From Sciscionella sediminilitoris (GTDB lineage: Bacteria > Actinomycetota > Actinomycetes > Mycobacteriales > Pseudonocardiaceae), in contig NZ_JALM01000038.1 of assembly GCF_000737195.2 (NCBI RefSeq), positions 24,443 through 88,442 of the forward strand: 64,000 nucleotides of DNA, written 5' to 3'. This document shows, piece after piece, positions 5,044-23,241 of the stretch. Position numbers and translations under genes: made by a program. The first letter of the stretch is position 1. Each line of letters begins with the position of its first letter. The notes below the pieces were generated by a model that was not told the origin of the DNA, did no database searches, and worked only from the letters and a program-made list of their open reading frames with translations.

Positions 5044-5056
5044 TTCCGCCGCCCCT

Positions 5057-6196
5057 CTAGTAGCCGAGCAGTTTCGCCGCGAGCCCGGTCATGATCTCGG
5101 TGGTGCCGCCGCCGATACCGAGGATCCGCATGTCCCGGTACTGACGCTCCACTTCGGACTCGGCCATGTACCCCATCCCGCCGTGCAGCTGCACCGCCTG
5201 GTTGGCCACCCACTCGCCCGCCTCCACCGCGGTGTTCTTCGCGAAGCAGACCTTGGCGAGCATGTTCTCCCCGGCCAGGTGCCGGGCCGCCACATCCCTG
5301 GTGTAGCTGCGCGCGACATCGGTGCGCCGGGCCATCTCGGTCAGCGTCTGGCGCACGGTCTGGCGTTTGATCAGCGGCTTGCCGAAGGTTTCCCGCTGCC
5401 GGGCCCATTCCACGGTGAGGTCGAGGCACCGTTGCGCCGCGGCATAGGCCTGTACCGCGAGGCTGAGCCGTTCGCTGACGAAGTGCTCGGCGATCCGGGC
5501 GAAACCGGTGTCCTGTTCCCCGACCAGATTGGCCGCGGGAACCCGTACGTCCACATAGGACAGCTCGGCGGTGTCCGAGGAATGCCAGCCCATCTTGGCG
5601 AGTTTCCGGCTGACCGTGAACCCCGGCGTACCCTTCTCCACGACCAGCAGCGAAATCCCCTGCGCCCCTTCACTTCCGGTGCGCACTGCGGTGGTGACGA
5701 AGTCCGCGCGCGTCCCGGACGTGATGTAGGTCTTGGCGCCGTTGACGATGTAGTGCTCGCCCTCGCGCCGGGCCGTGGTGCGGATCCCGGCCACATCCGA
5801 GCCGCCGTCCGGTTCGGTGATCGCCAGCGAGCCGATCTTCTCCCCCGCCAGGGTGGGCGCCGACCACTCGCGCAGCTGCCCGGGATCCCCCGCGCTGATG
5901 ATGTGCGGCAGCGCGATCCCGCAGGTGAACAGCGAGGCGAGCACCCCGCCCGCCGCTCCGGAATAGCCCAGTTCCTCCGCGACGACGAGCCCGTCGATGA
6001 CGTCCCCGCCTCCGCCGCCCGCGGACTCCGGGAACGCCGCGCCGAGCAGTCCCGCCTCGCCGGCGGCGCGGTGCAGCGCCCGCGGCAGTTCTCCCGCGCG
6101 CTCCCATTCCGCTTGGTACGGCAGGATTTCCCGCTGCGCGAAGGTGCGCACCGTTTCCCGCAGCCGGGTGCGTTCCTCGGTCTCGAAGGGGTTCAC
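5057..6196 (-). CDS. acyl-CoA dehydrogenase, operon copy 2
   Basis: A 379-residue acyl-CoA dehydrogenase starting at a GTG that overlaps the stop of the AtuA-like gene (GTGA). The FAD/substrate segment reads SLAITEPDGGSDVAGIRT and the C-terminal region has LHGGMGYMAESEVERQYRDMR followed by GGGTTEIM. The glycine before TTEIM stands where medium-chain enzymes carry the catalytic glutamate, so this is likely the IVD/citronellyl-CoA-like type. It is only distantly similar by eye to the other dehydrogenase of this operon, so the two probably act on different acyl-CoA intermediates. The product feeds electrons to ETF. Confidence 0.91.
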   Translation of the reverse strand: MNPFETEERTRLRETVRTFAQREILPYQAEWERAGELPRALHRAAGEAGLLGAAFPESAGGGGGDVIDGLVVAEELGYSGAAGGVLASLFTCGIALPHIISAGDPGQLREWSAPTLAGEKIGSLAITEPDGGSDVAGIRTTARREGEHYIVNGAKTYITSGTRADFVTTAVRTGSEGAQGISLLVVEKGTPGFTVSRKLAKMGWHSSDTAELSYVDVRVPAANLVGEQDTGFARIAEHFVSERLSLAVQAYAAAQRCLDLTVEWARQRETFGKPLIKRQTVRQTLTEMARRTDVARSYTRDVAARHLAGENMLAKVCFAKNTAVEAGEWVANQAVQLHGGMGYMAESEVERQYRDMRILGIGGGTTEIMTGLAAKLLGY

Positions 6197-7896
6197 AGCA
6201 AAACCTCCGGGATGTCGGCGACTCGCGAACGGAACCATTCGCCGAGCGATTTGGCCTGCGGATCGAACCGGGTCGAGGCGGCGACCCCCTTGCCGAGCAG
6301 GCCGTGGATCACGAAGTTCAGCGCGCGCAGATTGGGCAGTTCGAACCGCTCGATCTCCAGATCCGCGGTCTCCGGGAGCAGTTCCCGCAACCGCGCGACG
6401 GTCAGGTGTCCGGAGATCCAGCGGTAACCGAGTTCGTCGCGCGCCCACACCCCGAGGTTCGCGTCCCCGCCCTTGTCTCCGGAGCGGGCACCGAGCACCC
6501 GGCCGAGCGGGGCGCTGATCGTCGCTCCGCCGACCGGCTCGGTCACCGCTTCCGGTTGTCCCGCAACGGTTTCCCCGGGATCGTCAACGGGGTGCGGGAT
6601 CGGTTCGCGGGTACCGTCGGGCAGCACGGCGTACTGCTGGATCGCCGCGCGGTCCACATAGCCGGGCGTGTACACCCCGACCGGCGAACCCTTCCCCGGC
6701 GGGCTGGTCATGGTGAAGCCGGGATAGGAGGCGAGCGCGAGCTCCACGGCCGCCCTGGAGAACCGGTCGGCGCGTTTCGGGTCCGGAGTGCGGATGGTCG
6801 CGGTGTACAGCGCGGAGGCGAGCTGCTCGGTCTCCGCGTCCGCCCGGTCGGTGCGGGCGAGGTCGAAGATCAGTTCGTCATCCGGGAATTCGGCGCGCAG
6901 CTGCCGTTCGACCAGTTCCGCCTTCGCTTCGATGTCCAGCCCGCACAGCACGAAGGTCATCGCGTTGCGGAATCCGTCGAGCGTGTTCAGGCAGACCTTG
7001 ACGGTCCTCGGCGGTGCCTCGCCCCGCGTTCCGGAAAGCTCCACCCGGTCCTGGGCGAGCTCGCGCAGCCGCACCGTGTCGAAGCGCGCGGTCACATCCG
7101 GATTGCGGTAGGCGGGTTCGGCGATCTCGTACAACAGTTGCGCGGTCACGGTTTCCGTGGTGACCGCGCCCCCGGTTCCCGGATGCTTGGTCAGCACGCT
7201 GGACCCGTCCGCCCGCAGTTCCGCGATCGGGAAACCGGGCCTGCGCAGGTCGCCGAGCTCGGTGAAGAAGGAGAAGTTCCCCCCGGTCGCCTGGGTACCG
7301 CACTCGATCACGTGTCCGGCGGCGAGCGCGCCCGCGAGCCGGTCGTAGTCGGTCGTACCCCAGCCGAAATGCGCCGCCGCCGGGCCCATCACCAGCGCGG
7401 CGTCGGTGACCCGGCCGGTGACGACCACATCGGCGCCCGCCTCGAGGCAGGCCACGATCCCCCAGCAACCGAGGTAGGCGTTCGCGGTCAGCGGCTCACC
7501 GAAGCCGAACTCCGCGGCGCGCGGGCGCAGATCGTCGCCCTCCACGTGCGCGATCCGCGCTTCCAGCCCGAGCTCGGCGGCGAGCTCACGCAGCGCCGCG
7601 GCCAGACCGGCCGGGTTCAGCCCGCCCGCGTTCACCACGATCCGCACCCCGCGGGCGAGCGCCGGGCCGAGGCTTTCCCGCATCTGGCGCAGGAATGTCT
7701 TGGCATAGCCCAGATTCTCGTTCGCCATCCGGTCCCGGCCGAGGATGAGCATGGTCAGCTCGGCGAGGTAGTCCCCGGTGAGCACGTCGATCTCGCCACC
7801 GCCGAGCATCTCGGCGACCGCGTCGAACCGGTCACCGTAGAAGCCGGACACGTTCCCGATCCGCAGCACCTCGGTCATGCGTGGCTGCGGGGTCAT
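6193..7896 (-). CDS. AtuA-like acyclic terpene utilisation protein (DUF1446)
   Basis: The 567-residue protein opens with IGNVSGFYGDRFDA and contains GDYLAELTMLILGR, the hallmark start of the AtuA/DUF1446 family. After about residue 460 a smaller C-terminal domain follows (GARSGDKGGDANLGVWAR), as in the long actinobacterial form. In Pseudomonas, atuA belongs to the citronellol/geraniol catabolic cluster with a carboxylase and dehydrogenases, as here, but its biochemical role is not settled. It overlaps both neighbours by 4 bp, so it is translated within this operon. An internal ATG at 7878 is a possible alternative start. Confidence 0.88.
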   Translation of the reverse strand: MTPQPRMTEVLRIGNVSGFYGDRFDAVAEMLGGGEIDVLTGDYLAELTMLILGRDRMANENLGYAKTFLRQMRESLGPALARGVRIVVNAGGLNPAGLAAALRELAAELGLEARIAHVEGDDLRPRAAEFGFGEPLTANAYLGCWGIVACLEAGADVVVTGRVTDAALVMGPAAAHFGWGTTDYDRLAGALAAGHVIECGTQATGGNFSFFTELGDLRRPGFPIAELRADGSSVLTKHPGTGGAVTTETVTAQLLYEIAEPAYRNPDVTARFDTVRLRELAQDRVELSGTRGEAPPRTVKVCLNTLDGFRNAMTFVLCGLDIEAKAELVERQLRAEFPDDELIFDLARTDRADAETEQLASALYTATIRTPDPKRADRFSRAAVELALASYPGFTMTSPPGKGSPVGVYTPGYVDRAAIQQYAVLPDGTREPIPHPVDDPGETVAGQPEAVTEPVGGATISAPLGRVLGARSGDKGGDANLGVWARDELGYRWISGHLTVARLRELLPETADLEIERFELPNLRALNFVIHGLLGKGVAASTRFDPQAKSLGEWFRSRVADIPEVLL

Positions 7897-9828: not shown

Positions 9829-11769
9829 CTAGATGCTCAGATCGGGCTTGAGCTTGGCGATGCTCCATTCGCGTTTTCGCTTGGCGAGGAAGGTGCTCAG
9901 GGCCAGCGCGGCGATCAGGTAGCCGGCGAGCACGAGCACCGAGCGCACCAGGTGCGCGTTGTCCCCACCGGTGATGGTCACCCGCAGTCCCTCGACGAGA
10001 TAGCTCATCGGCAGCACCGGATGCAGCGCTCTGAAGAACCCGGGCAGGGTCTCCGCCGGATAGGTGCCCGCGCAGGTGGTCAGCTGCAGCAACAGCAGGA
10101 TCAGGATCACCGCGCTGCCCACTCCGCCGAGCGCCACCCGGCACAGGTGTGCGATCGCGGTGAACGCGGCCGCGGCGAGCACCATGATCCCGAGCAGGGC
10201 CCACGGATATCGCGCATCCAGGCCGAGACCGAGGCTGACGACCACATCCAGGAGCACGGCGGCGAGCACACAACAGGTGGCCGCGGGGAGATAACCGGAG
10301 AACGCGACCACGAAGCTGTTCGCCTTGCTGGCCAGCGCGCGCTTGGAGATCGGGCGCAGCACGAGGAACGCGGTGATACCGAAGACCACGAGCGCGATGG
10401 AGAAGAAGAACGGCGTCAGCCCACGGCCATAGTTGTCCGCCGGGTGCAGGTTCTCGGTGGCCACGTCCACCGGGGAGGCGAGCGTGGCGGCGTTGTCCCG
10501 CTGCTGCTGCGAGGACAGCACCGGAAGCTGATCCTTCGCGTCCTTGAGCCCCTTGGACAGTTTGTCCGCCCCGCCGTGCAGGGTGCCGATCCCCTGATTG
10601 AGGCTCTTCGCGCCCGGAGTGGCCTGGCCGATCCCGTTGTCCAGGTCGCTCGCGCCCTTGGCCACGTCCTTGGCACCGTTGGAGAGCTGCTGCAGCTTGC
10701 CCGCCGCGCCACTGACCTGTGCCTGCAGCTGCGGGGCGTCCGCGGCGACCGCGGAGGCGCCCTGGGCCACCGAGGCGGTGCGGTTCTTCACGGTGCCCGC
10801 GGTCGCGTTGACCTGGTTCACCGAGGATGTGAGGTCACCGGCGATCTCGGCGAGCCGCTGATAGGCGGGATCGGACTGCACCTCGGGATGGTTCTGCCCG
10901 ACCTGGGTGATCCGCCCCTGGATGGTGTCCAGTTTCCCGGAGAACCGGTTGGACACATCGGAGGCCTTGCCCGCGAGGGTGGCCGCGTCGTTCGCCGCCG
11001 TCGACGCGGTACCGGTGATCGCGGGGATCGAGTCCGCGATCCGGTTGGCCACCGGGCCGACCCGGTCGTTGATCGTGCCGACCCCGTCGGCGACCTGCTG
11101 GGCTCCCGGGGCCAGTTTGTCCGCCCCCGCCTTGAGTTTGTCCAGCCCGGTGACGAGGTCCCCGCTGCCCTTTTGCGCGCTGCCGAGCCCGTCGCGCAAC
11201 TGGTCGGCGCCCTTCGAGGCGTCGGTGATGCCGTCGTGCAGCCGCTGCATGTTCCCGAACACGGACTGGAAATACGCCGAGACCGCGGCCGCGCTGATCT
11301 TGGTCTGCAGCTCGGACTGCACCGTCTGGGCCATCTTCCCGACGATGTAGCCGTTCGCGTCGTCCAGCGTGATCAGCATTCCCGCCCGCTGCGGGGTGCC
11401 GTTCGCCCCACTGGCCAGTTTGCGGGAGAAGTCCTCCGGTACCGAGATCTTGAAGTAGTAGCTGCCGTCGTGCACGCCGTTGTCGGCCTCGGCCCGCGAG
11501 ACGAAGTGCCAGTCGAAGATCCGGTCGTTGCGCAGCTCGTCGGTGAAGATCTTGCCCGCGTCCACGTGCTGGCCCTGCACGTCCACCGGCTTGTCCTCGT
11601 TCACCACGGCGACCGGGATCTGGTTGAGCTTGCCGTAGGGGTCCCAGTTCGCCCACAGATAGAGGCCGCCGTAGAGCAGCGGGACGAGCACGATGAACAC
11701 GAGCGCGGCCCGCTGCAGCGGTTTGCGGAACCGCCGGATCTCCTGCCATGCCAGCTTAAACGCCCGCAT
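9829..11769 (-). CDS. YhgE/Pip-domain membrane protein (ABC-2-like exporter or phage-infection-protein family)
   Basis: The 646-residue protein has one N-terminal transmembrane helix, a large extracytoplasmic region and about five C-terminal helices, the YhgE/Pip plan. The external part holds PYGKLNQIPVAVVNED, typical of the family start, and long helical, coiled repeats of the form GADQL/GAQQV/GASDL around residues 180-400. Similar proteins include Lactococcus Pip and ESX/type VII-linked components. Here it is translationally coupled (14 bp overlap) to an ABC-type ATPase, so a transport role is likely. Substrate unknown. Expression is probably set by the operator pair upstream of the ATPase gene. 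Confidence 0.85.
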   Translation of the reverse strand: MRAFKLAWQEIRRFRKPLQRAALVFIVLVPLLYGGLYLWANWDPYGKLNQIPVAVVNEDKPVDVQGQHVDAGKIFTDELRNDRIFDWHFVSRAEADNGVHDGSYYFKISVPEDFSRKLASGANGTPQRAGMLITLDDANGYIVGKMAQTVQSELQTKISAAAVSAYFQSVFGNMQRLHDGITDASKGADQLRDGLGSAQKGSGDLVTGLDKLKAGADKLAPGAQQVADGVGTINDRVGPVANRIADSIPAITGTASTAANDAATLAGKASDVSNRFSGKLDTIQGRITQVGQNHPEVQSDPAYQRLAEIAGDLTSSVNQVNATAGTVKNRTASVAQGASAVAADAPQLQAQVSGAAGKLQQLSNGAKDVAKGASDLDNGIGQATPGAKSLNQGIGTLHGGADKLSKGLKDAKDQLPVLSSQQQRDNAATLASPVDVATENLHPADNYGRGLTPFFFSIALVVFGITAFLVLRPISKRALASKANSFVVAFSGYLPAATCCVLAAVLLDVVVSLGLGLDARYPWALLGIMVLAAAAFTAIAHLCRVALGGVGSAVILILLLLQLTTCAGTYPAETLPGFFRALHPVLPMSYLVEGLRVTITGGDNAHLVRSVLVLAGYLIAALALSTFLAKRKREWSIAKLKPDLSI

Positions 11770-12421
11770 TGATTCCCTCCTCGGTTGCGCCGAGTTCGCA
11801 GACGGCCGCGCCGTAGCGGCGCGCGATGTCCGCTGAGTGTGTGCTCGCGATGACCGATACGCCGTATCCGCTGAGTTCGGCGAGTGCCGCCCAGATCCGC
11901 GCCTGCTGGGCCTGGGTCACCTGCGCGTCCACATCGTCCACGACGAGCGCGGACGGCTTGGCCGCGGCGGCGAGTGCCACGGCGAGCAGCGTCGCGTCAT
12001 CGGCGGGGAGTTCGCCGACGAAGGCGGCCCCGTCCACGCTGAGCCCGAGCACCCCGGCCGCCCACTCGTAGTCGATGGGTTTCCCGGCGAGCATCCCCGC
12101 CTCGGAGCGATGGTCGATCACCCGCAGGTCCGGCTCCAGCTCGGCGGCGCCGGTCACCCGCGCGACCGCGACCGCCTCGCGGACCGCGGACCGCCGGAGT
12201 TCCGCGTTGCCCCGCTCGTCGAGCACCCGCAGCGTTCCCGAGCTCGGCTTCGCGCGTCCAGCGAGCGCCAGCAACAGCATGGTCCGTCCGCTGCCCGAGG
12301 GTCCGGCCACCGCGGTCAGCGATCCGGTCGGCACGACGAGATCCACGCCGTTGAACACCCAGCCCCGCTTGGTTCCGAGGCTCAGGGCATCCGCGATCAA
12401 CACCGGAATCGACTCGTTCAT
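11756..12421 (-). CDS. degenerate ABC-type ATPase partnered with YhgE protein
   Basis: A 221-residue single ABC domain. The Walker A loop reads GPSGSGRTM, so the catalytic lysine is replaced by arginine (R46). The expected LSGGQ signature is not recognisable (ELPADDATLL occupies the place), and Walker B is LVVDD with Asp where the catalytic Glu is expected. The H-loop histidine is kept (IASTHS). The fold is probably retained, but ATP hydrolysis may be weak or absent. The 14 bp overlap with the YhgE gene implies a complex. A divergent ABC subfamily with unusual but working motifs is the alternative. Confidence 0.82.
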   Translation of the reverse strand: MNESIPVLIADALSLGTKRGWVFNGVDLVVPTGSLTAVAGPSGSGRTMLLLALAGRAKPSSGTLRVLDERGNAELRRSAVREAVAVARVTGAAELEPDLRVIDHRSEAGMLAGKPIDYEWAAGVLGLSVDGAAFVGELPADDATLLAVALAAAAKPSALVVDDVDAQVTQAQQARIWAALAELSGYGVSVIASTHSADIARRYGAAVCELGATEEGINAGV

Positions 12422-12475
12422 CGTCCGTGCCCCTCGCGGGAGCTGGCCAGCTCGATCACTGAGTTCCCCATTTCC

Positions 12476-12506
12476 GATACGGCTCGTATTCGATACGTTT
12501 CGTATC
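12476..12506. promoter_or_regulatory. two tandem 15-bp dyads, likely TetR-type operator for the YhgE operon
   Basis: Two copies of GATACGnnnCGTATY lie 16 bp apart: GATACGGCTCGTATT at 12476-12490 and GATACGTTTCGTATC at 12492-12506, the second a perfect 6-3-6 inverted repeat. They sit 55-85 bp upstream of the ATPase start. No regulator gene is adjacent, so the repressor would act from elsewhere. Confidence 0.65.
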
Positions 12507-12629
12507 CTAACGGGCATCTCACAGCCAGCAAGCGCGGGGCGAACCAGTGAACTCGCCGCTATTTCGCAGCGCAATCCGGTAATGCGGCGGACCACGGTGG
12601 CCCCGCGCACAGTGGCGGAATCGCCGAAT

Positions 12630-15600
12630 TCAGCGCCCGATTCCGGAGGGCTTCCGTTCCGCCGCGGTTTTCCCAGAAGACTGACCGGCGAGGAGTTCGC
12701 GCAGATGCTCGGCCACCTTGTTGACATTCGGCGGATCGAGCACGGAAAGGTGATGCCCCGGTGTGGGCACGATCTCCAATTCCTCGCCGAGCACCTCGTC
12801 CCACCCCTTCGGCAGATCGTGCCGGTCGAAAATGGGGTCGCGGATCCCGTCCTCCTGCCGGTCGGTGGCGCTGTAGAGCACTACGGGGGCGGACAGGTGC
12901 TGCGGGCGGAACCGTTGCAGTGCTTGCACATCCTCGTACGAGGTCCGCTGGTGCCGGATGATCGCGGGCGCGACCTCGGCATTGATGAACCCGTGCGATT
13001 CGATGTGCTCGATGATCGCGTCCACCTGCTCGTCCTCGCCGAGCCGGGCGATCTGCTCGTGCGGGATGTCGATCTCCATCCCGTAGTTCGCCCGCAGCAC
13101 ATCGCGGAATCTGGCGAACCGCAGCTCGAGCATGCCCACCTCGTCGAGCCCATCCGGCAGCGGGAGCGGAAGCAGCGTGTCGATCATCGCGACCAGTTCG
13201 ACCCGCTCCCCCTCGGCCGCCAGCTGGGCAGCGACCGCGTAGGCCAGCGCGCCGCCGAAGGACCAGCCGGCGAGCCGGTAGGGCCCGTGCGGCTGGATCT
13301 CACGCAGCAGCGGCAGATACACCGTGACCCGGTCGGTGATGTCCGGGTTTCCGTCCAGCCGGTCGAAGCCGTATACCGCGAGATCCGGATCGAGCTGGTC
13401 GACCAGCTGCCGGTACACGAGCGTGTCCCCGCCTCCGGGATGGAACAGGAAAAGCGGCTGACCGGATCCGGTTCCCGCACGCAGCACCCGCACCGGCTGG
13501 TCCGGGGTCTCCGGTTCCCGCACCAGCCCGGCGGCGCGCTCCACGGTCTCCGCCTCGCGCAGCGCGGCCACGGTGACCACGTGATCGCTTCGCCTGGTCA
13601 GTCGCTCGGCGATCTCCTCCATCGCGGCCTCATCGGCGATCTCGGTCCAGCGCTGGGTCATGCCGATCTCGGTGCCGAGCACCTCGGTGCCGACCGTCTC
13701 GAGCAGCCGCTCGGCCGCGTCCCGCGGTGGCACCAGCAGCGGCACCTCGCCGGGCGTGTCCGCGGCCTCGCCGAACACCGTCGCGCCCAGCCAGTCCCGC
13801 ACCTGCTCGATGCTGGCCCCGCGCAGCAGCAGCGAGGGCGGCAGCAGCGCACCGGTGTCGTGCTGCACGCTGTTCCGGATCCGCACCGCGACAAGGGAAT
13901 CCACCCCGATACTCGGCAGCGGGGCCCGGGTGTCGAGCGCCTCGCCCGGCACTCCGAGGATGTCGGCCACCCGGTCGAGCAGGCGCGCGGCGAGCAGTTC
14001 CCGTGCCCGTTCCGGTTCGAGCGAACGCAGCGCCGACACACCCGGCCAGTCGCCCTCGCCGGTCCGCCGACCGGCGAGCCGTTCCAGGAAGGGCCGCTCG
14101 GCCACGTAGTCGGGCAGCTTGTCGAGATGTTCCTCGAGCGGGCGATTCACCCCGATCGCGGTGACATCGGCGGCCAGCGCGGCTTCGAGGGCTTCGATGT
14201 TCTCGACCGGATCGGTGGTGCCGATATCGCCGAGCACCGATCCGTCCCGGACCGCTCCCGCCTTGGCCCACACGCCCCAGTTCACCGTGGTCCCGGGCAG
14301 CCCGAGCGCCCTGCGGTGCGCCACGATCGCGTCCAGGCAGGCGTTCGCGGGTGAGTAGGCGGCGTGCCCGGGGAAGCTGAGCACGCCCATCATCGAGGAG
14401 AACCCGGCCCAGAAGTCCAGTTCGTGTGCCCTGCTCGCCAGGTGCAGCCGCCACGCCCCGGCCACCTTCGGCAGCCAGACCCTGGCAAGCAGTTCCGCAT
14501 CGGCACGCAGCGCCACCCGGTCGTCGATCACCGCGGCGCCGTGCAGGACCCCGCGCAGCGGAACCGAGCCTTCGACCGCGGCGGCCACCAGGCGTTCGGC
14601 GACCCCTTCCTCGGCGATGTCCCCGGTCTCCACCCGGATCTCGGTGCCCTTGGCCGCCAGTTCCTCGATCACTTGGCGGGCCTCGGGTTTCGGCTCCGAG
14701 CGTCCATTGAGGACGATCCGCGCGGCGCCCGCCTCGGCGAGCCAGCCGGCCAGCACGAGCCCGATCCCGCCGAGGCCACCGGTGACCACATAGGCGCCGT
14801 CGGAACGGACCACGCTCCCCCGCTCCGGCTCCACCGCCAGCTCGGCGCGGGAAAGCCGCGCCACATAACGGTTCCCGGACCGCCAGGCGACCTCGTCCTC
14901 GCCCGTGTCCGCGGCCAGTTCCGCGGCTACCGTGGCGCAGTCCCCGGTGTCCTCGATGTCCACCCAGCTCGCGCGCAGTTCCGGGTGCTCGTAGGCGAGC
15001 AACCGCACGCTCGCGCGCACCGCGGCGGCCACCGGATCGACCGGGTCCCCGTCGCGCACCGCGGCGGCCCGGGTGGTCAGCAGCACCAGCCCGGTGTGCG
15101 CGGCGCCCGCGGTCACCAGGGTGCGCACCAGCTCGTAGAGCCGCTCGTACCACACGTGCCCTCCGGTGACCTCCATCCCGCGCGGGGCACAGAGAATCAC
15201 TTTGTCCGGCAAGGGATCCACGGTCTCGGTGACGGTGTATCCCGCCTGCCGCAGCGCCTCGTGCAGCGCCGGGTCACCGTCGAGCACGGCGACCGTTCCC
15301 GCGGCGGGCACTTCCTCGAGGAGGCGCTGTTCGAGCGGTCGCCGCTCCCATTCGAGGCGGTAGAGCTTGTCCGCGAGGGCGAGCGGGAGATCCTGCTCTC
15401 CACTTCGCACCCCGCGCAGCTCGCACAGCACCGAACCCGCCTCGTCGAGCAGCACGCCGTCCGTCCCGTCCCCGCGCAGCCGCACCGCCGCGGCGGGGTC
15501 TCCGTACAGCCGCACCGAGGCCACCTCGGTCGCCGCGCCGAGCACTTCGCTGAGCACATCCGGTGCGCACAGCCAGCCGCTGGCGCGCTCCTCGAGCTCG

Positions 15601-18600
15601 AGCTGCCGCTCCGGCCCCTCCACCGTGGACGGTTCGCTATCCGCGGGCCGGAGCACGAGCCGCGCGTGGGTGCGCGCGGGCGCCCCGCCGACCCGCGAGG
15701 TGATCGTGAGGACCGCCGAGTTCCCGGTCTGTTCCGCGAGGCTGCACACCCGCGCCTGTTCGCCGAGCGGCAGCCCGCGCAGCAGCCGCAGTTCCTCGAT
15801 CGCCACCGGGCGGTCACCGAACAGCGGTGCCGCGGCCGCGCGGGCCATCTCCACGTATTCGGCCGCGCCGAGGTGGGTACCCAGCCAGGGCAGCTGTTCG
15901 GCTTCGGGCAGCCGTTCCCGTTGCCACACATGGGTTTTCCCGTCCGGCATCCGGACGTGGGTGCCCAGCAGCCGGTGACCGCCGCCCGCGTCGGGTTCGC
16001 GCACCCAGTGCGAGCGCCGCCGCCACGGCGGAAGCGGCAGGTCCACGATCCGCCCGGACTGGGTGGCCGCGCCGAACCCGGCCAGCTGCGCGGCGGCCAG
16101 TTCGGTGTGGAACCGCAGGCACGCCGGCTCGTCCCTGCGCAGGCTGTCGAGCACCGTCGCACCGCGATTGCCCGCATCGGCGAGCACATCCGCGGTCGCC
16201 CCGGCGAGCACCGGATGCGGGGAGATCTCCACGAACACGTCGAATCCATCGGCCGCGGCCGCCTCGACCGCCGCGGCGAACCGCACCGGTTCGCGCAGGT
16301 TCTGCCCCCAGTAGCCCGCGTCGAAGCTCCGCGCGGCCCGCGGATCGGTACCGACCGTGTGATAGCACGGGATGTCCGGCTCGGCGACCGTGATCCCGGC
16401 AAGCCCGGCGCTCAGCTCACCGACGAAGGGATCCAGCACCGGGGAATGCGCCGGAGCGGTCACCTTGACCAGTTTCGCCGACACCCCAAGGGATTCCGCC
16501 TTCGCGACAACCCGGTGCACGGCCTCGGTCGCCCCGGAGATCACCGTGCTCGAGCGGGAGTTGATCGCGGCGATCCCGGCCTCGGGTTCGGCGCCCAGCA
16601 GTTCCTCGACCGAGGCCTGGGGCAGCGCGATACTCGCCATGGTGCCGAATTCGGTGACCGAGTCCAGGATCCGCGAGCGCGCGGCGATGACCTTGACCGC
16701 ATCGGGAAGTTCGAGTGCCCCGCACACCACGGCCGCGGCCACCTCGCCCATCGAGTGCCCGAGCACCGCGGCGGGGGTCTGCCCGTACGAGCGCCACAGC
16801 GCGGCGAGGCCGAGCTGCATCGCGAACAGCACCGGTTGCACGCGTGCCATGCTCACCGGCTCCTGGTCCGTGGTGATCAGTTCGCGGACCGAGAAGCCGC
16901 ATTCCGCGGCCACCAAGGGTTCCAGTTCGTCGATCGCGGCGGCGAACGCGGGCTCGGTGGCCAGCAGCTCGGTGCCCATGCCCGCCCACTGGGAGCCCTG
17001 ACCGGAGAACACCCACACCGGACCGGTCGCCCGGGCGCGGCGGCCCTCGAGGACCGCGGCCGAGGACGCCGGTTCCCGCCCGGCGGCCAGGGCCCGCAGC
17101 CCCTCGGTCAGACCCGCGGCGTCCTCGGCGACCACGGCCCGGCGCACCGGGCCGGAGAACCGCCGCGCACAGCTGTGGGCCAGATCGCCGGGGTCCCCGG
17201 AACCGAGCCAGTCGGCGAGTGCGCCCGCGTATTCGGCCAGCCGACCGGAATCCGCCTCACCGAGCAGCACCCGGTACGGGCCGGTGTGCCGCTCCTGTTC
17301 CGGAACCGGTTCCGCCTGCCGCACCACGATGTGCGCGTTCGTGCCGCCGAATCCGAAACCGGAGACACCGGCGACCGCGGGTTCCGCGCGCCGCAGCGGG
17401 AACGGTTCGGCGGCCACGGCGAGCCCGAGACCGGCGAAGTCGATATGCGGGTTCGGCGCCGAGTAGTTCAGCGAGGCGGGGAGTTCGCCGTGTCCCAGTG
17501 CGAGCACGGTCTTGATCACCCCGGCGATCCCGGCAGCGGCCTCGAGATGCCCCAGATTTCCCTTCACCGAGCCGATCCGGAGCGGTTCGCGGTCTCCACC
17601 GCCGAGCACCGCACCGAGCGCGCGGGCCTCGATCGGATCGCCGAGCAGCGTTCCCGTCCCGTGCGCCTCCACGAAGTCCACCCGGGCCGGATCGACCCCG
17701 GCATCGGCGTAGGCCGCGCGCAGCACCGCTTGCTGTGCCTCGACGTTCGGCGCGGTGAGTCCGTTGGTGCGGCCATCGGAGTTCACCGCGGAACCGGCGA
17801 GCACGGCGAGCACCCGGTCGCCGTCCGCACGCGCATCGGCGAGCCGCTTGAGTACGAGCACCCCGGCCCCCTCGGCGCGCACGATACCGTCGGCGTCCGC
17901 GGAGAACGGGCGGCAGCGCCCGCTCGGCGAGCTCACCCCGAGTTTGTCGAAGCTGGCCGTGACCGCGGGGCCGAGCAGCAGGTTCGCGCCACCGGCGAGC
18001 GCGTACCGGCAGTCCCCGGCACGCAGCCCACGGATCGCGTTGTGCACCGCGACGAGCGAGGAGGAACAGGCTGTGTCCACCGCCATGCTCGGACCGCGCA
18101 GATCGAAGGCGTAGGAGAGCCGGTTCGCCGCGACCGCGAGCGAACCACCCGTGGCGCACCAGGCATCGGCCGAGCGCGGATCGGCGAGCCCGCGGTGCGC
18201 GTACTCATTGCCGCTGATTCCGATGTACACCCCGGTTTCGGTGCCCCGCAGGGAATCCGGGGACACCGCCGCGTGCCCCAGTGCCTCCCGCGCCACCTCG
18301 AGCAGCATCCGCTGCTGGGGATCCATCCGGCGCGCCTCGGCGGGACTGATCGCGAAGTACTCGGCGTCGAACTCGTCGATCCCGGTCAGGTAACCGCCCG
18401 CAGTGCTCGCCGCGGACTCGTCGGCCCAGCGCCCGCGCGGCACGGTGGAAACCGCGTCGGTGCCCGAACGCAGCAGTTCCCAGAAGGCCTCCGGACCGTC
18501 CACCGCACCGGGGAAGCGGCAGCCGATCCCGATCACCGCGATCGCGTCATCCGGTTGCCCGGCAACGGTTTCCGGAACCTCGGCGGTTTCCCGTCCGGTA

Positions 18601-18836
18601 CCCGGCGCACCGGTGAGCGCCGCGGCGAGCCCGGCGACGGTCGGGTGATCCCACAGCAGGGTGGCGGGAAGTTCGGCGCCGAGCAGTTGCTCGAGTTCCC
18701 CCGCGACACTGACCGCGTCCCGTGAGGAGAGTCCGTGCTCGGCCATCGGCCGGTGCATGTCGATCTCCTCCGGATCGAGGAAACAGACCTCGGCGAGTTG
18801 TTCGATGAGCCAGTCGCGCAGTTCCGCTTCGGTCAT
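12630..18836 (-). CDS. Pks13-like type I polyketide synthase with built-in ketoreductase (ACP-KS-AT-DH remnant-KR-ACP-TE)
   Basis: A 2068-residue megasynthase. An N-terminal ACP has GLSSRDAV (phosphopantetheine Ser38, as in mycobacterial Pks13). The KS has Cys257 in DTACSSSL plus His392 and His430; the AT has GHSMG with Ser695 and His797. A short DH-like remnant covers about 950-1230. The KR has TGGLGGIG near 1350, active Tyr1494 and an IDD/PGH pattern resembling B-type KRs. A second ACP carries GVDSL (Ser1647), and a terminal TE has GWSFGG (Ser1859) and a late PGHHLSVLDPP histidine. Pks13 normally lacks a KR and is about 1730 residues. The ligase gene lies 15 bp upstream, so the two are one operon. 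The likely product is a 2-alkyl-3-hydroxy acid or shorter beta-hydroxy lipid. Confidence 0.93.
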   Translation of the reverse strand: MTEAELRDWLIEQLAEVCFLDPEEIDMHRPMAEHGLSSRDAVSVAGELEQLLGAELPATLLWDHPTVAGLAAALTGAPGTGRETAEVPETVAGQPDDAIAVIGIGCRFPGAVDGPEAFWELLRSGTDAVSTVPRGRWADESAASTAGGYLTGIDEFDAEYFAISPAEARRMDPQQRMLLEVAREALGHAAVSPDSLRGTETGVYIGISGNEYAHRGLADPRSADAWCATGGSLAVAANRLSYAFDLRGPSMAVDTACSSSLVAVHNAIRGLRAGDCRYALAGGANLLLGPAVTASFDKLGVSSPSGRCRPFSADADGIVRAEGAGVLVLKRLADARADGDRVLAVLAGSAVNSDGRTNGLTAPNVEAQQAVLRAAYADAGVDPARVDFVEAHGTGTLLGDPIEARALGAVLGGGDREPLRIGSVKGNLGHLEAAAGIAGVIKTVLALGHGELPASLNYSAPNPHIDFAGLGLAVAAEPFPLRRAEPAVAGVSGFGFGGTNAHIVVRQAEPVPEQERHTGPYRVLLGEADSGRLAEYAGALADWLGSGDPGDLAHSCARRFSGPVRRAVVAEDAAGLTEGLRALAAGREPASSAAVLEGRRARATGPVWVFSGQGSQWAGMGTELLATEPAFAAAIDELEPLVAAECGFSVRELITTDQEPVSMARVQPVLFAMQLGLAALWRSYGQTPAAVLGHSMGEVAAAVVCGALELPDAVKVIAARSRILDSVTEFGTMASIALPQASVEELLGAEPEAGIAAINSRSSTVISGATEAVHRVVAKAESLGVSAKLVKVTAPAHSPVLDPFVGELSAGLAGITVAEPDIPCYHTVGTDPRAARSFDAGYWGQNLREPVRFAAAVEAAAADGFDVFVEISPHPVLAGATADVLADAGNRGATVLDSLRRDEPACLRFHTELAAAQLAGFGAATQSGRIVDLPLPPWRRRSHWVREPDAGGGHRLLGTHVRMPDGKTHVWQRERLPEAEQLPWLGTHLGAAEYVEMARAAAAPLFGDRPVAIEELRLLRGLPLGEQARVCSLAEQTGNSAVLTITSRVGGAPARTHARLVLRPADSEPSTVEGPERQLELEERASGWLCAPDVLSEVLGAATEVASVRLYGDPAAAVRLRGDGTDGVLLDEAGSVLCELRGVRSGEQDLPLALADKLYRLEWERRPLEQRLLEEVPAAGTVAVLDGDPALHEALRQAGYTVTETVDPLPDKVILCAPRGMEVTGGHVWYERLYELVRTLVTAGAAHTGLVLLTTRAAAVRDGDPVDPVAAAVRASVRLLAYEHPELRASWVDIEDTGDCATVAAELAADTGEDEVAWRSGNRYVARLSRAELAVEPERGSVVRSDGAYVVTGGLGGIGLVLAGWLAEAGAARIVLNGRSEPKPEARQVIEELAAKGTEIRVETGDIAEEGVAERLVAAAVEGSVPLRGVLHGAAVIDDRVALRADAELLARVWLPKVAGAWRLHLASRAHELDFWAGFSSMMGVLSFPGHAAYSPANACLDAIVAHRRALGLPGTTVNWGVWAKAGAVRDGSVLGDIGTTDPVENIEALEAALAADVTAIGVNRPLEEHLDKLPDYVAERPFLERLAGRRTGEGDWPGVSALRSLEPERARELLAARLLDRVADILGVPGEALDTRAPLPSIGVDSLVAVRIRNSVQHDTGALLPPSLLLRGASIEQVRDWLGATVFGEAADTPGEVPLLVPPRDAAERLLETVGTEVLGTEIGMTQRWTEIADEAAMEEIAERLTRRSDHVVTVAALREAETVERAAGLVREPETPDQPVRVLRAGTGSGQPLFLFHPGGGDTLVYRQLVDQLDPDLAVYGFDRLDGNPDITDRVTVYLPLLREIQPHGPYRLAGWSFGGALAYAVAAQLAAEGERVELVAMIDTLLPLPLPDGLDEVGMLELRFARFRDVLRANYGMEIDIPHEQIARLGEDEQVDAIIEHIESHGFINAEVAPAIIRHQRTSYEDVQALQRFRPQHLSAPVVLYSATDRQEDGIRDPIFDRHDLPKGWDEVLGEELEIVPTPGHHLSVLDPPNVNKVAEHLRELLAGQSSGKTAAERKPSGIGR

Positions 18837-18851
18837 GTCCCCGCCCGTCCG

Positions 18852-20612
18852 CTATTTTTCGGTTCGAATCATGTCGAGATACTGCTCGCGGTTCGCCGCG
18901 CGGGCGATCTTCCCGCTGGATGTGCGGATGATCCCGCCGGTGGGAATCAGCCGCACATCGCGCAGTTTCACGTCGTGCACCTGGGAAACGGCGCGCTTGA
19001 CCGAACGGCTGAACTCCTTCTGGTCCACCGCGGCGAGATCGGTCCCCGGCCGCGCCTCGATCAGCACCACCGCACCCTCGGTCTCCCCGTCGTCCACGCT
19101 GAACGCGGCGAGGTGCTGGCGCCGGATCACCTCGTGTGCCTGCTCCGCGGTCGCCTCGATGTCCTGCGGGTAGTGGTTCTTGCCGTCGATGATGATGAGG
19201 TCCTTCATCCGCCCGGTGATGAACAGCAGGTCCGCGTGGAACATCCCGAGGTCCCCGGTGCGCAGCCACGGCCCCTCCGGAAGCCCCTCCTCGTGCAGCA
19301 CCCCGCGGAAGGTCGTCTCCGTGGCCTCCGGGGAATCCCAGTACGCCGAGGCGACATTGGCCCCGTAGACCCAGATCTCGCCGACGGTCCCGTCCGGAAC
19401 CACCTCGCCGGTCCCCCGGTCCACGATGCGCACCAGCTGACCGGCCGGTGTCCCCGCGGCGACCAGCGGGAGGGCGTCCTCGGCGGTGGACTCCACAGCG
19501 CGGTTGTCGGCGAGCGCTGCCCGGTCGAAGCCGCGCACCACCGGACCTTCCGATCCGGTGGTCGTGACGTAGACGGTCGCCTCGGCGAGCCCGTAGGAGG
19601 GCCGGTGTGCCGACCGGTCGAGCCCGCACGGGCCGAAGGCCTCGGCGAACCGGTCGATCGTGCCCGCACGGATCGGCTCCGCCCCGTTGCGCATCGAATG
19701 CACCCGGGAGAGGTCGAGCCGCGCCCGGTCCTCCTCGGTGGTCTTCTTCACCAGCATGTCGAAGGCGAAATTGGGCCCGCCGGTGACCGCGTTCGGGAAT
19801 TCGGCCAGCAGTTCGAGCCACCGCACGGGTTTGAGAATGAACGCGAACGGCGTGGTGAACACCGCGTGCGCGCCGAGGTGCACCGGGAAACAGATCTGCA
19901 GCACGAGCCCCATGTCATGGAACAACGGCAGCCAGCCGACGCAGGTACTCGTCTCGTCCGCGGGGAAACCGGCCGCGCCCTGCGCGCAGTTGGTCGCCAC
20001 CGCGCGATGGGTGATCACCGCACCCGCCGGGGTCCGGGTGGAACCGGATGTGTACTGCAGATAGGCGGGTTCGTCCAGGCCGATCTCCGGGGCCTTGAAG
20101 TCCTTCCCGGATCCCTCGGAGATGCCGTCCACGGCGAGGATGTGCCCCGGAGCGGGTACCCCTTCCGTCGTGGCGAGTTCCTCGACCGCGTCCAGGCTCG
20201 ACGAGGAAGTCAGCCACAGTTTCGGCGCGCAGTTCGCCAGTGCGCCCACCAGGCGGTCCGCGTGCGCACCGAGTTCGGGCGCGAACAGCGGCACCGCGAT
20301 CCGGCCGGCGAGCAGCGCTCCGAGAAATCCGGTGACATAGTCGTGATTCTGCGGAGCGAGCACCGCGACCCGGTCCCCGGGCGCGGTCTGTTCGGTGACC
20401 GCAGCGGCCACATCCCGCACACGGGCAACGAGCTGACGCCAGGTGAGCGTGTGCCGTTCCCCCTGGCGGTCGTTCGTGTAGTCCACGAAGGTCGAGGCGA
20501 GCCGATCAGATTCGGCCCGCTGCACCAGATCCTCGGTGATCGGGCGCGCCGCCTGAGTCAATCGCCCCTTGGCGGGCTCCGCCGTCGCGGCTACACCACT
20601 ACTGACCGACAT
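18852..20612 (-). CDS. fatty-acyl-AMP ligase (FadD32-like), loader of the PKS
   Basis: This 586-residue adenylate-forming enzyme has the FAAL/FadD32 core motif YLQYTSGSTRTPAG at about 184-197, then GWLPLFHDMGLVLQICFPVHLG, YGLAEATVYV and LRTGDLG, and a C-terminal lysine region ending SSGKIARAANREQYL. FAALs activate a long fatty acid as acyl-AMP and pass it directly to an ACP, here most simply the N-terminal ACP of the synthase encoded 15 bp downstream. The N-terminus agrees with family length, and the ATG is preceded by a low-GC promoter-bearing gap. The chain length used cannot be read. Confidence 0.93.
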   Translation of the reverse strand: MSVSSGVAATAEPAKGRLTQAARPITEDLVQRAESDRLASTFVDYTNDRQGERHTLTWRQLVARVRDVAAAVTEQTAPGDRVAVLAPQNHDYVTGFLGALLAGRIAVPLFAPELGAHADRLVGALANCAPKLWLTSSSSLDAVEELATTEGVPAPGHILAVDGISEGSGKDFKAPEIGLDEPAYLQYTSGSTRTPAGAVITHRAVATNCAQGAAGFPADETSTCVGWLPLFHDMGLVLQICFPVHLGAHAVFTTPFAFILKPVRWLELLAEFPNAVTGGPNFAFDMLVKKTTEEDRARLDLSRVHSMRNGAEPIRAGTIDRFAEAFGPCGLDRSAHRPSYGLAEATVYVTTTGSEGPVVRGFDRAALADNRAVESTAEDALPLVAAGTPAGQLVRIVDRGTGEVVPDGTVGEIWVYGANVASAYWDSPEATETTFRGVLHEEGLPEGPWLRTGDLGMFHADLLFITGRMKDLIIIDGKNHYPQDIEATAEQAHEVIRRQHLAAFSVDDGETEGAVVLIEARPGTDLAAVDQKEFSRSVKRAVSQVHDVKLRDVRLIPTGGIIRTSSGKIARAANREQYLDMIRTEK

Positions 20613-20963
20613 TTCTTCACCACCGACTTCATCAGGTCTCCGCAGCCGCCGTAAGAATCGGCGCCGCGGTCAACTGCCCAAGTGTCCAGAATGGAAGCGA
20701 ACTCGTTGTTATTGTCTCTTGATCTCAACTACCGGATTTTTCATGACGTGTCGGGGTGGCCTCAGTTTTTCATTCCTCGGGAAAACAACTTTCCGCGGAA
20801 CGGCACGCCGGGACGCACCGACCGGCGAGGTGGACCTACTCTCCAGTCACCCCGCAGAGTGAGCAAGACAGTATCACCCGATCGACTGGTCCGCCACACG
20901 AACGTGAACCGAGTTTTGCACTGGGCCACCACGCCCGGCGAGGGTCTTATGAACCTGTTTTCG
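20613..20963. other. 351-bp low-GC intergenic stretch upstream of the FAAL-PKS operon
   Basis: No convincing coding region was found on either strand. About 20690-20780 is markedly poorer in G+C than the window (runs such as GTTGTTATTGTCTC and ATTTTTCATG). It most likely holds the minus-strand promoter and regulatory region of the FAAL-PKS operon and the end of the esterase transcript. No clear -35/-10 pair could be fixed. Confidence 0.5.
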
Positions 20964-21866
20964 CTAGCTCACCGACAGTCTGTCCCGCAGGAAGGGCCAG
21001 GCCTTGCCCAGCTCACGCTGCCAGTACGGCCAGTCATGGGTACCGGTCCCGATGCTTGCCGTATAGGAAATCCCCAGCTTATCGAGGCGCCGTGTGAAGC
21101 TTCTGTTCGAGGAGGAGACCAGCCGCTCGACAAGTCCACTTCCCGGGAACACTGCGTCACCATTGGCCTTCCGACCATCGCCCCAGGCAAGATACAACGC
21201 CGTCCCGCGAAACCGCTCGGCTTGCCGGAAAGGATCCCTACTCACCCATGCGGAGGAGTTGTCCCGTGGATTTCCGAACGGCGCGTAACCAGGCTCCCCC
21301 TGTCGGCGAAGCGTGAAACAAACGAACGCGGAGACAAAACGTTTCGTAATATGTGGTAAACCACTCAGCGAGACCGCGGTGGTGAAAAGCGAAGGGTGAT
21401 TCGCGGCATAGGCCAGCGCCCCGTATCCGCCCATCGAAATTCCGGCGACCGACCACTCCGGTGCGAGCGCGCATCCACCGAGCAGCCGCCGCGGAACTTC
21501 TTCGAGATGAAAACGCTCCCATTCCGGTCTGCTCCCGCGACTGTCCGGGTGTGACCAATCGGTGTAGTAACCGACCACACCCGCCTCCGGGGCGACCAGG
21601 ATCGCATCGGTGTCCTCGGCCAGCTCGAGCAGGTTCGTCTTGTCCACCCAGCAACGTGGATCGTCATCACTGCCGTGCAGCAGATAGAGCACCGGCGTGG
21701 GGTAACCCGCGTGCCAGTTCTTCGGGAAGACGAGCAGACACTCGGCACGGCGCCCGAGCGCGGCCGAGTCGAAGGAGCACAGCCGCACTCGTTCGTCCCC
21801 GTACTCGTCCTCGATCCGGACGCCCGAATCGAGAGCATGATCACGGAACGCACGCATCGCTTCCAT
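20964..21866 (-). CDS. antigen-85/esterase-D-fold acyl hydrolase or acyltransferase, apparently cytoplasmic
   Basis: A 300-residue alpha/beta hydrolase with the Ag85/esterase-D features LVFPKNW...PVLYLLHG, VGYYTDWSHPDSRG, the nucleophile elbow GISMGG (Ser144) and a C-terminal THDWPYW (His277). In mycobacteria, Ag85 proteins transfer mycolates onto trehalose outside the cell. This one starts MEAMRAFRDHALDSG with no signal peptide, unless the true start is missed. It lies just upstream of the FAAL-PKS operon on the same strand, as fbpA does near fadD32-pks13. Its DNA is less GC-rich than its neighbours, hinting at separate acquisition. It may release or transfer the PKS product; a simple esterase is the alternative. 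Confidence 0.85.
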   Translation of the reverse strand: MEAMRAFRDHALDSGVRIEDEYGDERVRLCSFDSAALGRRAECLLVFPKNWHAGYPTPVLYLLHGSDDDPRCWVDKTNLLELAEDTDAILVAPEAGVVGYYTDWSHPDSRGSRPEWERFHLEEVPRRLLGGCALAPEWSVAGISMGGYGALAYAANHPSLFTTAVSLSGLPHITKRFVSAFVCFTLRRQGEPGYAPFGNPRDNSSAWVSRDPFRQAERFRGTALYLAWGDGRKANGDAVFPGSGLVERLVSSSNRSFTRRLDKLGISYTASIGTGTHDWPYWQRELGKAWPFLRDRLSVS

Positions 21867-21951
21867 GGCAATCTTCCTCTCTCGAGAGCATCACGCGATC
21901 GGGGGCCGTAGGATAACGCCCAGTCATGAGGGTTCGGTCACGAGGAGTCAG

Positions 21952-23241
21952 GTGAACACTACCGAGGTATACGCGCCCCGGGTAGGGCAACGCCCATGGC
22001 TCGCGCTCGCCGCCACCGTGGTCGGTGCGATCATGGTGGGTCTCGACGGCACCGCCGTCACGATCGCGGCACCCTATGTCGCCCGGGATGTGCACGCGAC
22101 GCTGCCCGAACTGGAGTTCATCGCGAACGCCTATCTCATCGCCCTCGCGATCGGGCTGCTCCCGGCCGGACGGGTCGCCGACCGGATCGGGCGGCGGACC
22201 ACGTTCATGATCGGCGTGCTCGGCTTCGGGCTCAGCTCGGTCGGCATCGCCCTTTCCGGAAGCGTGACCGCGCTGATCGTGTTCCGGGCGATCCAGGGGC
22301 TCGCCGGCGCCCTGCTGCAGCCCGCCGCGCTCGCCCTGCTGCGCACCGCCTTCGACGCGAAACGTCTCCCGCTCGCGCTCGGCGTGTGGAGCGGGGTGAA
22401 CGCGCTCGCGATCGGGCTCGGCCCGGTGCTGGCCGGGGTGATCGTGGAATATCTCGATTGGCCCGCCATCTTCCTGATCAACCTGCCGATCGGGATCATC
22501 GCCGCGGTCAGTGCGCTGTTCGCGGTCCAGGAATCGCACGCCCGCGATGCCAAGGTGCTCAGCTCGCTGCGCACCCTGCTCACCCATCGCACGGTGCTCG
22601 TCACGAGCGCGGTGATCGCGCTGAGCTCGTTCGGCATCTTCGGGCTGCTGTTCATGCTCACCCTCTACCTGCAGAACGTGCTCGGCCTTTCCCCGATCGT
22701 CGCCGGGTTGTGGATTCTCGGCCCGACGGCCACGGTGGTGTTCTCCGCGCTGATCGGCGGGGCGCTCGGCGAACGATTCGGCCCGCGCTGGCCGATGACC
22801 GCCGGACTGCTGTTCGTCGGCTGCGGCATCTTCGGCGTGGCCGGTGCCGGACAGCCGGCCGGTTACTGGGAACTCGTACTGCCCGCGTTGGGTGTCGGGA
22901 TCGGCACCGGGCTGTGCGTGGTGCCCGCGACCAACGCCCTGCTCGCGGCCGCCGGGGAACGGCTCACCGGCATCGCATCGGCCGTACAGCAGGCGGGCAG
23001 TCAGTTCGGCGGGCTGCTCGGGATCGCGCTGCTCGGCACGGTGCTCTCCTCCACCGTCGCGGGTTCCGTACCGTCGGGCACCACCGGCGTGGACGACATC
23101 GCACAGGGCATGGTGCCCCATGGGGTGACCGCCGATGTCGCGCACACGGCGTTCACCAGCGGGATGAACATCGCCCTGATCGTGGCAGCCGGGATCACCG
23201 TGCTCGGTGCGCTCGGGACCGCGCTGCTCGCGCGGCGCTGA
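21952..23241 (+). CDS. MFS drug/metabolite exporter (DHA2-like)
   Basis: This 429-residue membrane protein starts at GTG with GAGGAG 5 bp upstream. Helix 1 contains GLDGTAVTIAAPYVARD, and loop 2-3 has GRVADRIGRRTTFMIG, the MFS motif A. The motif-C-like region RAIQGLAGALLQPAALALL follows. Twelve or more transmembrane helices are visible. It is divergent from the Ag85-like esterase, with an 85-bp shared region, so it might export the lipid or an unrelated drug; context alone cannot decide. Its 3' end overlaps mobA by 47 bp on the opposite strand. Confidence 0.9.
   Translation: MNTTEVYAPRVGQRPWLALAATVVGAIMVGLDGTAVTIAAPYVARDVHATLPELEFIANAYLIALAIGLLPAGRVADRIGRRTTFMIGVLGFGLSSVGIALSGSVTALIVFRAIQGLAGALLQPAALALLRTAFDAKRLPLALGVWSGVNALAIGLGPVLAGVIVEYLDWPAIFLINLPIGIIAAVSALFAVQESHARDAKVLSSLRTLLTHRTVLVTSAVIALSSFGIFGLLFMLTLYLQNVLGLSPIVAGLWILGPTATVVFSALIGGALGERFGPRWPMTAGLLFVGCGIFGVAGAGQPAGYWELVLPALGVGIGTGLCVVPATNALLAAAGERLTGIASAVQQAGSQFGGLLGIALLGTVLSSTVAGSVPSGTTGVDDIAQGMVPHGVTADVAHTAFTSGMNIALIVAAGITVLGALGTALLARR

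Follow-up and report, generated by a model that had tools for sequence, protein, structure and literature searches.

A ketoreductase-bearing relative of Pks13 in Sciscionella sediminilitoris and a possible self-reducing ancestry of the mycolate condensase

How does a synthase built like the mycolate condensase Pks13 come to carry a ketoreductase (KR) of its own, and was this domain gained by such enzymes or lost by Pks13? Mycobacteria cannot do without Pks13, which is also a drug target. The question is raised by a window of Sciscionella sediminilitoris DNA (the whole stretch analyzed, 64,000 nucleotides of contig NZ_JALM01000038.1), in which an esterase of the antigen 85 (Ag85) family, a fatty acyl-AMP ligase (FAAL) and a synthase with acyl carrier protein (ACP) and thioesterase (TE) domains lie together in one direction, as a preliminary description of the sequence had stated and as was confirmed for each element. 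The synthase is a relative of Pks13, not Pks13 itself by the curated model. Sequence comparisons favor, without proving, a position of Pks13 nested among KR-bearing synthases, and Pks13 may thus once have possessed such a KR and then lost it. The genes and the domains of the synthase, which also include ketosynthase (KS), acyltransferase (AT) and dehydratase (DH) domains, are as follows.

20964..21866, minus strand: esterase/acyltransferase of family PF00756, 300 aa; Ser in GISMGG, His in GTHDWPYW, no signal peptide visible
18852..20612, minus strand: FAAL, 586 aa, by family models and PDB sequence matches
12630..18836, minus strand: synthase, 2,068 aa, ACP-KS-AT-degenerate DH-KR-ACP-Ser-less ACP-TE
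18615..18815, minus strand: ACP1, residues 8-74, PP-binding; GLSSRDAV at 35-42
17283..18548, minus strand: KS, residues 97-518; DTACSSS, EAHGTGT and NLGHLEAAAG present
16077..17018, minus strand: AT, residues 607-920; GHSMGE, specificity motif APAH at 794-797
15342..15977, minus strand: degenerate DH, approximately residues 954-1165; double hot dog in the model, catalytic loop cut, C-terminal part shortened
14265..14798, minus strand: KR, residues 1347-1524; TGGLGGIG at 1352-1359, PKVAGAW, FSS, Y1494 in AAYSPANA (1492-1499), IDD at 1437-1439
13800..13997, minus strand: ACP2, residues 1614-1679; GVDSL at 1644-1648
13509..13751, minus strand: Ser-less carrier-protein-like domain, approximately residues 1696-1776; PPRDAAERL; common to Pks13 ACP3
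12696..13460, minus strand: TE, residues 1793-2047; GWSFGG, D in AMIDT, PGHH
21865..23241, plus strand: divergent major facilitator superfamily (MFS) transporter gene that recurs with the cassette; the true start probably lies slightly further in

On the minus strand the esterase is transcribed first, then the FAAL and then the synthase, whose start follows the FAAL stop after 15 bp, while the MFS gene points the opposite way. The preliminary description had seen one polypeptide holding both condensing and reducing domains, and the KS, AT, KR, ACP and TE domains with their motifs are indeed present; the complete KR that it placed between the AT and the second ACP (Tyr1494, TGGLGGIG) is matched by PF08659 with 178.4 bits at residues 1347-1524, and retains the motifs for the cofactor and for Lys, Ser and Tyr, the catalytic residues. 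It had also treated the N-terminal ACP motif GLSSRDAV as a Pks13 mark; the motif is where it was said to be, but such motifs are general across the 77 aligned family rows and not specific to Pks13. The degenerate DH between AT and KR, the Ser-less ACP before the TE and the divergent MFS gene had been passed over.

Several parts of the synthase point to Pks13. The Pks13 model NF040607 gives it 1,237.6 bits, below the curated cut-off of 2,100 (PpsA scores 1,036 and the KR-bearing synthase of locus L117 1,424.2 bits), and its KR sets it apart from the Pks13 order ACP-KS-AT-ACP-TE. The seven best PDB sequences for its TE are all Pks13, which makes the TE one of the Pks13 type, and the Ser-less third ACP beside it agrees with the Ser-less ACP3 described for Pks13 in PMC9900942. 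A hidden Markov model (HMM) of this domain, built from the 77 family rows, finds the same place in all ten Pks13 proteins (37.7-70.4 bits), in 7/7 KR-bearing proteins (43.8-121.2 bits; three of the seven are from the training set) and, weakly, in five of six KR-less Amycolatopsis proteins (13.0-25.3 bits), and in none of three KR-less Streptomyces proteins. A classical pks13 elsewhere in the genome, which the preliminary description had considered, was not found above the NF040607 cut-off in the draft assembly (7.42 Mb, 215 contigs, 96.87% complete; one of 14 control genomes passes the cut-off), and because the genome is a draft, absences from it are provisional. A free protein resembling the C-terminal part of Pks13 is encoded in three Prescottella / Rhodococcus hoagii loci (L055:9623-11008, L059:9341-10984, L083:9232-10789), with no KS gene found within 21 kb; in L055 it shows a DH*-like stretch (see below) and a Ser-less ACP by eye and a TE by search.

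The second relic common to both enzymes lies between AT and ACP2. In the window synthase, PKS_DH_N matches residues 954-1046 with 30.8 bits (cut-off 27) and the PS-DH profile gives no match; the loop that in relatives resembles DHRMDGRPVLPGAAY is shortened to THLGAAEY, and is likewise cut in the three nearest relatives (P0006-P0008). An AlphaFold2 (AF2) model folds this stretch into a double hot dog closest to a MAS-like DH (mean pLDDT 64.5; E 2.5e-11). Since the strict HxxxGxxxxP motif is kept in only 26/77 aligned rows, which apparently count the paralogue from the same genome twice (C90, P0076), DH decay is common in the family. In a profile comparison, the Pks13 linker between AT and ACP2 matches the DH half found in KR-bearing synthases (97.2%, E 3.1e-11; 34 linkers), and the DH part alone aligns with it nearly as well (96.6%, E 5.8e-10; 20 linkers; controls at most 1.5%). 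Modeled by AF2, the linker forms a hot dog in which 67/164 residues reach a pLDDT of at least 90, nearly all within 36-122, and its best structural match is again a MAS-like DH. The stretch has already been named DH*, an inactive N-terminal DH half, in a cryo-EM paper (PMC11649247).

The direction of change was addressed with trees of rows picked by hand. In the KS tree (61 rows), the KR-bearing, KR-less and Pks13 rows group together (98/98) with PpsA next outside (97/56), and the window KS falls in this one clade with Pks13 and not among ordinary modular polyketide synthases (PKSs), the comparison on which the preliminary description had let its case depend. The KS+AT tree (60 rows; one row was dropped for lack of an AT) recovers the family clade with Pks13 (99/97), and modular PKSs, PpsA and the MAS-like rows fall outside it; with the TE matches and the common Ser-less ACP, this upholds the proposed Pks13 kinship. 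Within the clade, the window's side (100/99) holds 19 rows, every one KR-bearing, and the other side (97/91) holds seven KR-bearing rows together with Pks13 (100/100) and two KR-less groups. As KR-bearing rows flank Pks13 on either side, loss of the KR and of half of the DH towards Pks13 is the simplest reading; in an approximately unbiased (AU) test on KS+AT, a single clade of KR-bearing rows is rejected (p 0.018). We infer that the KR-bearing form is the older one, and that Pks13 is a branch without the KR and the second DH half, which retained the DH* half and a dead ACP.

The preliminary description had it the other way round, with a KR fused into a Pks13-type enzyme to give a self-reducing mycolate synthase. 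This we regard as improbable: the KR is widespread in the family and the KS and KS+AT trees favor loss towards Pks13, so that a fusion is not supported and the proposed direction probably reverses; moreover PpsA, just outside the family in the KS tree (at the low second support value given above), carries a KR, and Pks13 keeps a DH half that can be aligned with the DH of KR-bearing synthases. Several results nevertheless weigh on the side of a gain, or at least against the loss. On the KS alone a single clade of KR-bearing rows is not rejected (p 0.10), and on KS+AT neither a position of Pks13 outside all other family members (p 0.080) nor a single KR-less clade (p 0.19) is rejected. The TE tree (66 rows) sets Pks13 apart and does not nest it among KR-bearing rows, with an outgroup that is unusable, as three of its five rows (L055, L059, L083) fall among Pks13 and two sit on long branches among the others; the FAAL tree places FadD32 outside, not inside, the other FAALs. 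The DH* alignment also has its weak side: with a plain HMM of the DH half, the Pks13 linker gives only weak matches (10/34 after the AT, E 0.003-0.8), not one of the 24 corynebacterial rows falls below E 1, and a Pfam search of four Pks13 proteins found no DH.

How far the arrangement is conserved was assessed by a TE-profile scan of named genomes, from which the best 80 of 121 relatives were taken. Among these, 70 loci have a full KS protein, 19 with KR and TE and 51 with TE and without KR. The cassette of MFS, esterase, FAAL and synthase genes occurs in 18/19 of the named KR-bearing loci (Amycolatopsis, Kibdelosporangium, Lentzea and others) and is therefore not a chance arrangement; the recurrence beside FAAL and Ag85-family genes that the preliminary description had envisaged is thus found. 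A synthase of Sciscionella marina is 95% identical along the whole length. The lone exception (L027) is a second copy in S. marina, orthologous to a further FAAL and KR-bearing synthase pair in the S. sediminilitoris genome itself (C90; L007:3860-11898), and this paralogue lacks esterase and MFS genes (no match within 19 kb of the S. sediminilitoris copy), a point against the reading of the locus set out below. In seven loci (L013-L018, L020) the longest esterase frame overlaps the 3' end of the synthase gene.

KR-less relatives show arrangements of their own. In all three complete Streptomyces loci (L051:3479-11773, L066:3139-11737, L070:3201-11740), genes for AccD, FAAL, an ACP-KS-AT-ACP-TE synthase without KR and an esterase follow one another; the AT motif is GAGH as in Pks13 and the esterase leader is Tat-like by eye. 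The row resembles a mycolate-condensation cassette, although Streptomyces is not known for mycolates. In 20 Amycolatopsis loci (L032, L036, L037, L039-L050, L052-L054, L067, L074) the KR-less synthase is shorter (1,384-1,479 aa once trimmed, motif VAGH) and adjoins a FAAL gene, and in 18 of them an esterase gene, mostly with a leader by eye, lies on the opposite strand.

The partners of the synthase resemble those of Pks13 without being the same. The ligase had been called FadD32-like: it is a FAAL, nearer to FAALs than to acyl-CoA ligases, with fatty-acid--AMP ligases as best family models and FadD32/FadD23/FadD28-type proteins as best PDB sequences, but it is not FadD32, since it scores 518.8 bits on the FadD32 model NF038339 (cut-off 975) and branches outside the FadD32 clade in a tree of 45 rows, where FadD32 (100/99) is sister of the others (90/86) and FadD26 lies outside. 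The Ag85-fold assignment of the esterase fared similarly. It belongs to PF00756 (98.5 bits), PS1, Cmt1 and Ag85 are the PDB sequences that match it best, and its two catalytic motifs have counterparts in the alignment, GLSMGG/GISMGG for its GISMGG and mostly G(T/V)HSW(P/E)YW for its GTHDWPYW; yet it is no Ag85 orthologue, as it falls in a core clade of its own (100/99; 48 rows) separate from the mycolyltransferase rows (100/100). No signal peptide is seen by eye, and the open frame of 308 codons extends at most 8 beyond the 300-aa reading, which begins about at the start of the PF00756 domain; the enzyme is thus apparently cytosolic, and the lack of room for a signal peptide and the separate clade make mycolyl transfer in the envelope unlikely. 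Most core-clade esterases likewise show no signal peptide by eye; in L025, L026 and L029, where the longest frame extends further upstream, one may be present. Esterases beside the outer KR-bearing and the KR-less synthases mostly have one by eye, and long leaders are carried by the esterases encoded at the Pks13 loci of corynebacteria and Hoyosella. In the esterase tree, short branches join L025, a genome labelled Rhodococcus rhodnii NRRL B-16535, to its neighbour Kibdelosporangium aridum L026, and the label may therefore be wrong.

Judged from its sequence, the locus would couple a single fatty acyl chain with a single carboxylated extender. Keto reduction would take place on the same polypeptide, and the lipid set free would be a 3-hydroxy one, likely with a 2-alkyl branch, a reading that we hold to be rather probable. 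The FAAL would load a fatty acid onto ACP1 and the AT an alkylmalonyl-type unit onto ACP2, after which the KS would form a beta-keto (2-alkyl) acyl-ACP2 in one condensation. The KR would reduce the keto group in cis; its LDD-type motif IDD probably makes it a B-type KR with a 3R product. The hydroxyl would be retained with the DH apparently dead, water or a hydroxyl acceptor would take over the chain from the Pks13-type TE, the esterase may act on the released or bound chain by acyl transfer or hydrolysis, and the MFS pump would export the product.

A multiply branched chain, built before release by an iterative MAS-like synthase, would suit the KS-AT-DH-KR order, which is like that of iterative mycobacterial enzymes, but is very improbable given that no enoylreductase (ER) domain was matched in the synthase, that the DH appears dead, that the window KS lies outside the MAS-like rows, and that an N-terminal ACP, an adjacent FAAL gene and a Pks13-type TE are present.

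For the AT, PMC6164871 gives YASH as the methylmalonyl and HAFH as the malonyl motif. Pks13 rows carry GAGH (27/28) or GSGH (1/28), KR-less Amycolatopsis VAGH (20/20) and Streptomyces GAGH (3/3); KR-bearing loci have VAAH, VAGH, AAAH or APAH in 19/20 cases and YASH in one. The window's APAH has a small residue where HAFH has F and YASH has S, and by analogy this small third residue may leave space for a bigger alpha-branch. APAH is itself unusual and is interpreted by that analogy, and the methylmalonyl motif of the KR-bearing L029 weighs against this reading. The genome has two crotonyl-CoA carboxylase/reductase (CCR) genes that score above the cut-off. Of its four PF01039 matches three were placed in a tree, with C29 alone on the acyl-CoA carboxylase side (the fourth, C9, has 99.3 bits), and no dedicated AccD4 was found among them, which makes a long alpha-branch less sure. 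As the preliminary description had noted, no accD4-type gene adjoins the cassette; a carboxyltransferase gene of the window (3436-5043) belongs to a different AccD branch, within an AtuA-type catabolic operon. This operon (1436-7896), with biotin carboxylase, carboxyltransferase, acyl-CoA dehydrogenase and AtuA genes, is of the acyclic-terpene or leucine type.

The missing AccD4, the YASH of one relative, and the conserved MFS gene and apparently cytosolic esterase would all fit an enzyme supplied with malonyl- or methylmalonyl-CoA, whose product would be a 3-hydroxy fatty acid with a short branch or none. This acid would go into a soluble metabolite for export, either as a building block or as its ester part, and the Pks13 likeness would be a matter of ancestry only. 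We consider this unlikely, if well worth keeping in view, as the window and 19/20 KR-bearing rows have neither HAFH nor YASH, and have the small third residue seen in Pks13.

Among the closest known systems is that of Pks13, FadD32 and AccD4. It has the same order of N-terminal ACP, KS, AT, ACP, Ser-less ACP and TE, adjacent FAAL and PF00756 genes, the TE nearest to that of the window synthase, the small AT-motif residue and the DH-half relic, whereas in the window synthase the stretch from AT to ACP2 contains a KR and a DH relic of greater length, its FAAL is not FadD32, no AccD4 gene is adjacent, and the esterase is cytosolic by eye and in its own clade. In the phthiocerol system, a FAAL gene likewise adjoins an ACP-KS-AT-KR-ACP synthase (at L151, where the names PpsA and FadD26 are given by gene order), but PpsA has no TE and no Ser-less-ACP match, and its KS+AT groups with other Pps rows. 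The esterase shares with Ag85 and the corynebacterial mycolyltransferases its family and best PDB matches, and differs in clade, in the lack of a visible signal peptide and in its place beside an intracellular synthase. Cyanobacterial olefin synthase (OLS), as outlined in PMC11837247, runs FAAL-ACP-KS-AT-KR-ACP and then TE through a 3-hydroxy intermediate; the likeness noted here is in described domain order and intermediate, and OLS has a sulfotransferase and yields a terminal olefin. The product of Pks13 is given in PMC9210659 as alpha-alkyl beta-keto, released on polyols with a preference for trehalose.

Downstream of the synthase, an ABC ATPase and a YhgE/Pip permease (9829-12421) are shared, among the 80 loci, only by S. 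marina (L011), and a palindrome in front of the ATPase, approximately at 12475-12507, resembles a regulator site.

The wider proposal, which we put forward tentatively and as somewhat short of probable, is that mycolate-type condensation predates mycolic acids. The ancestor of Pks13 would be a FAAL-fed, self-reducing synthase of a kind that mycolate-free actinobacteria still possess, and Pks13 would have lost the KR and half of the DH, hence the separate reductase CmrA; DH* and ACP3 would be fossils of that enzyme, and its living forms may make mycolate-like 2-alkyl-3-hydroxy lipids that have not been described. For the Pseudonocardiales, among which Sciscionella (Pseudonocardiaceae) is placed, arabinogalactan without mycolic acids is reported in PMC6194230. 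For Pks13, in which DH* and ACP3 have no assigned activity, the conserved KR-bearing relatives with their FAAL and Ag85-fold partners point to a likely source of both relics, and they offer enzymes from non-pathogens for studying condensation and reduction on one chain. Most KR-bearing hosts are actinobacteria that do not form mycolates, which predicts a hidden class of lipids in Amycolatopsis and its kin.

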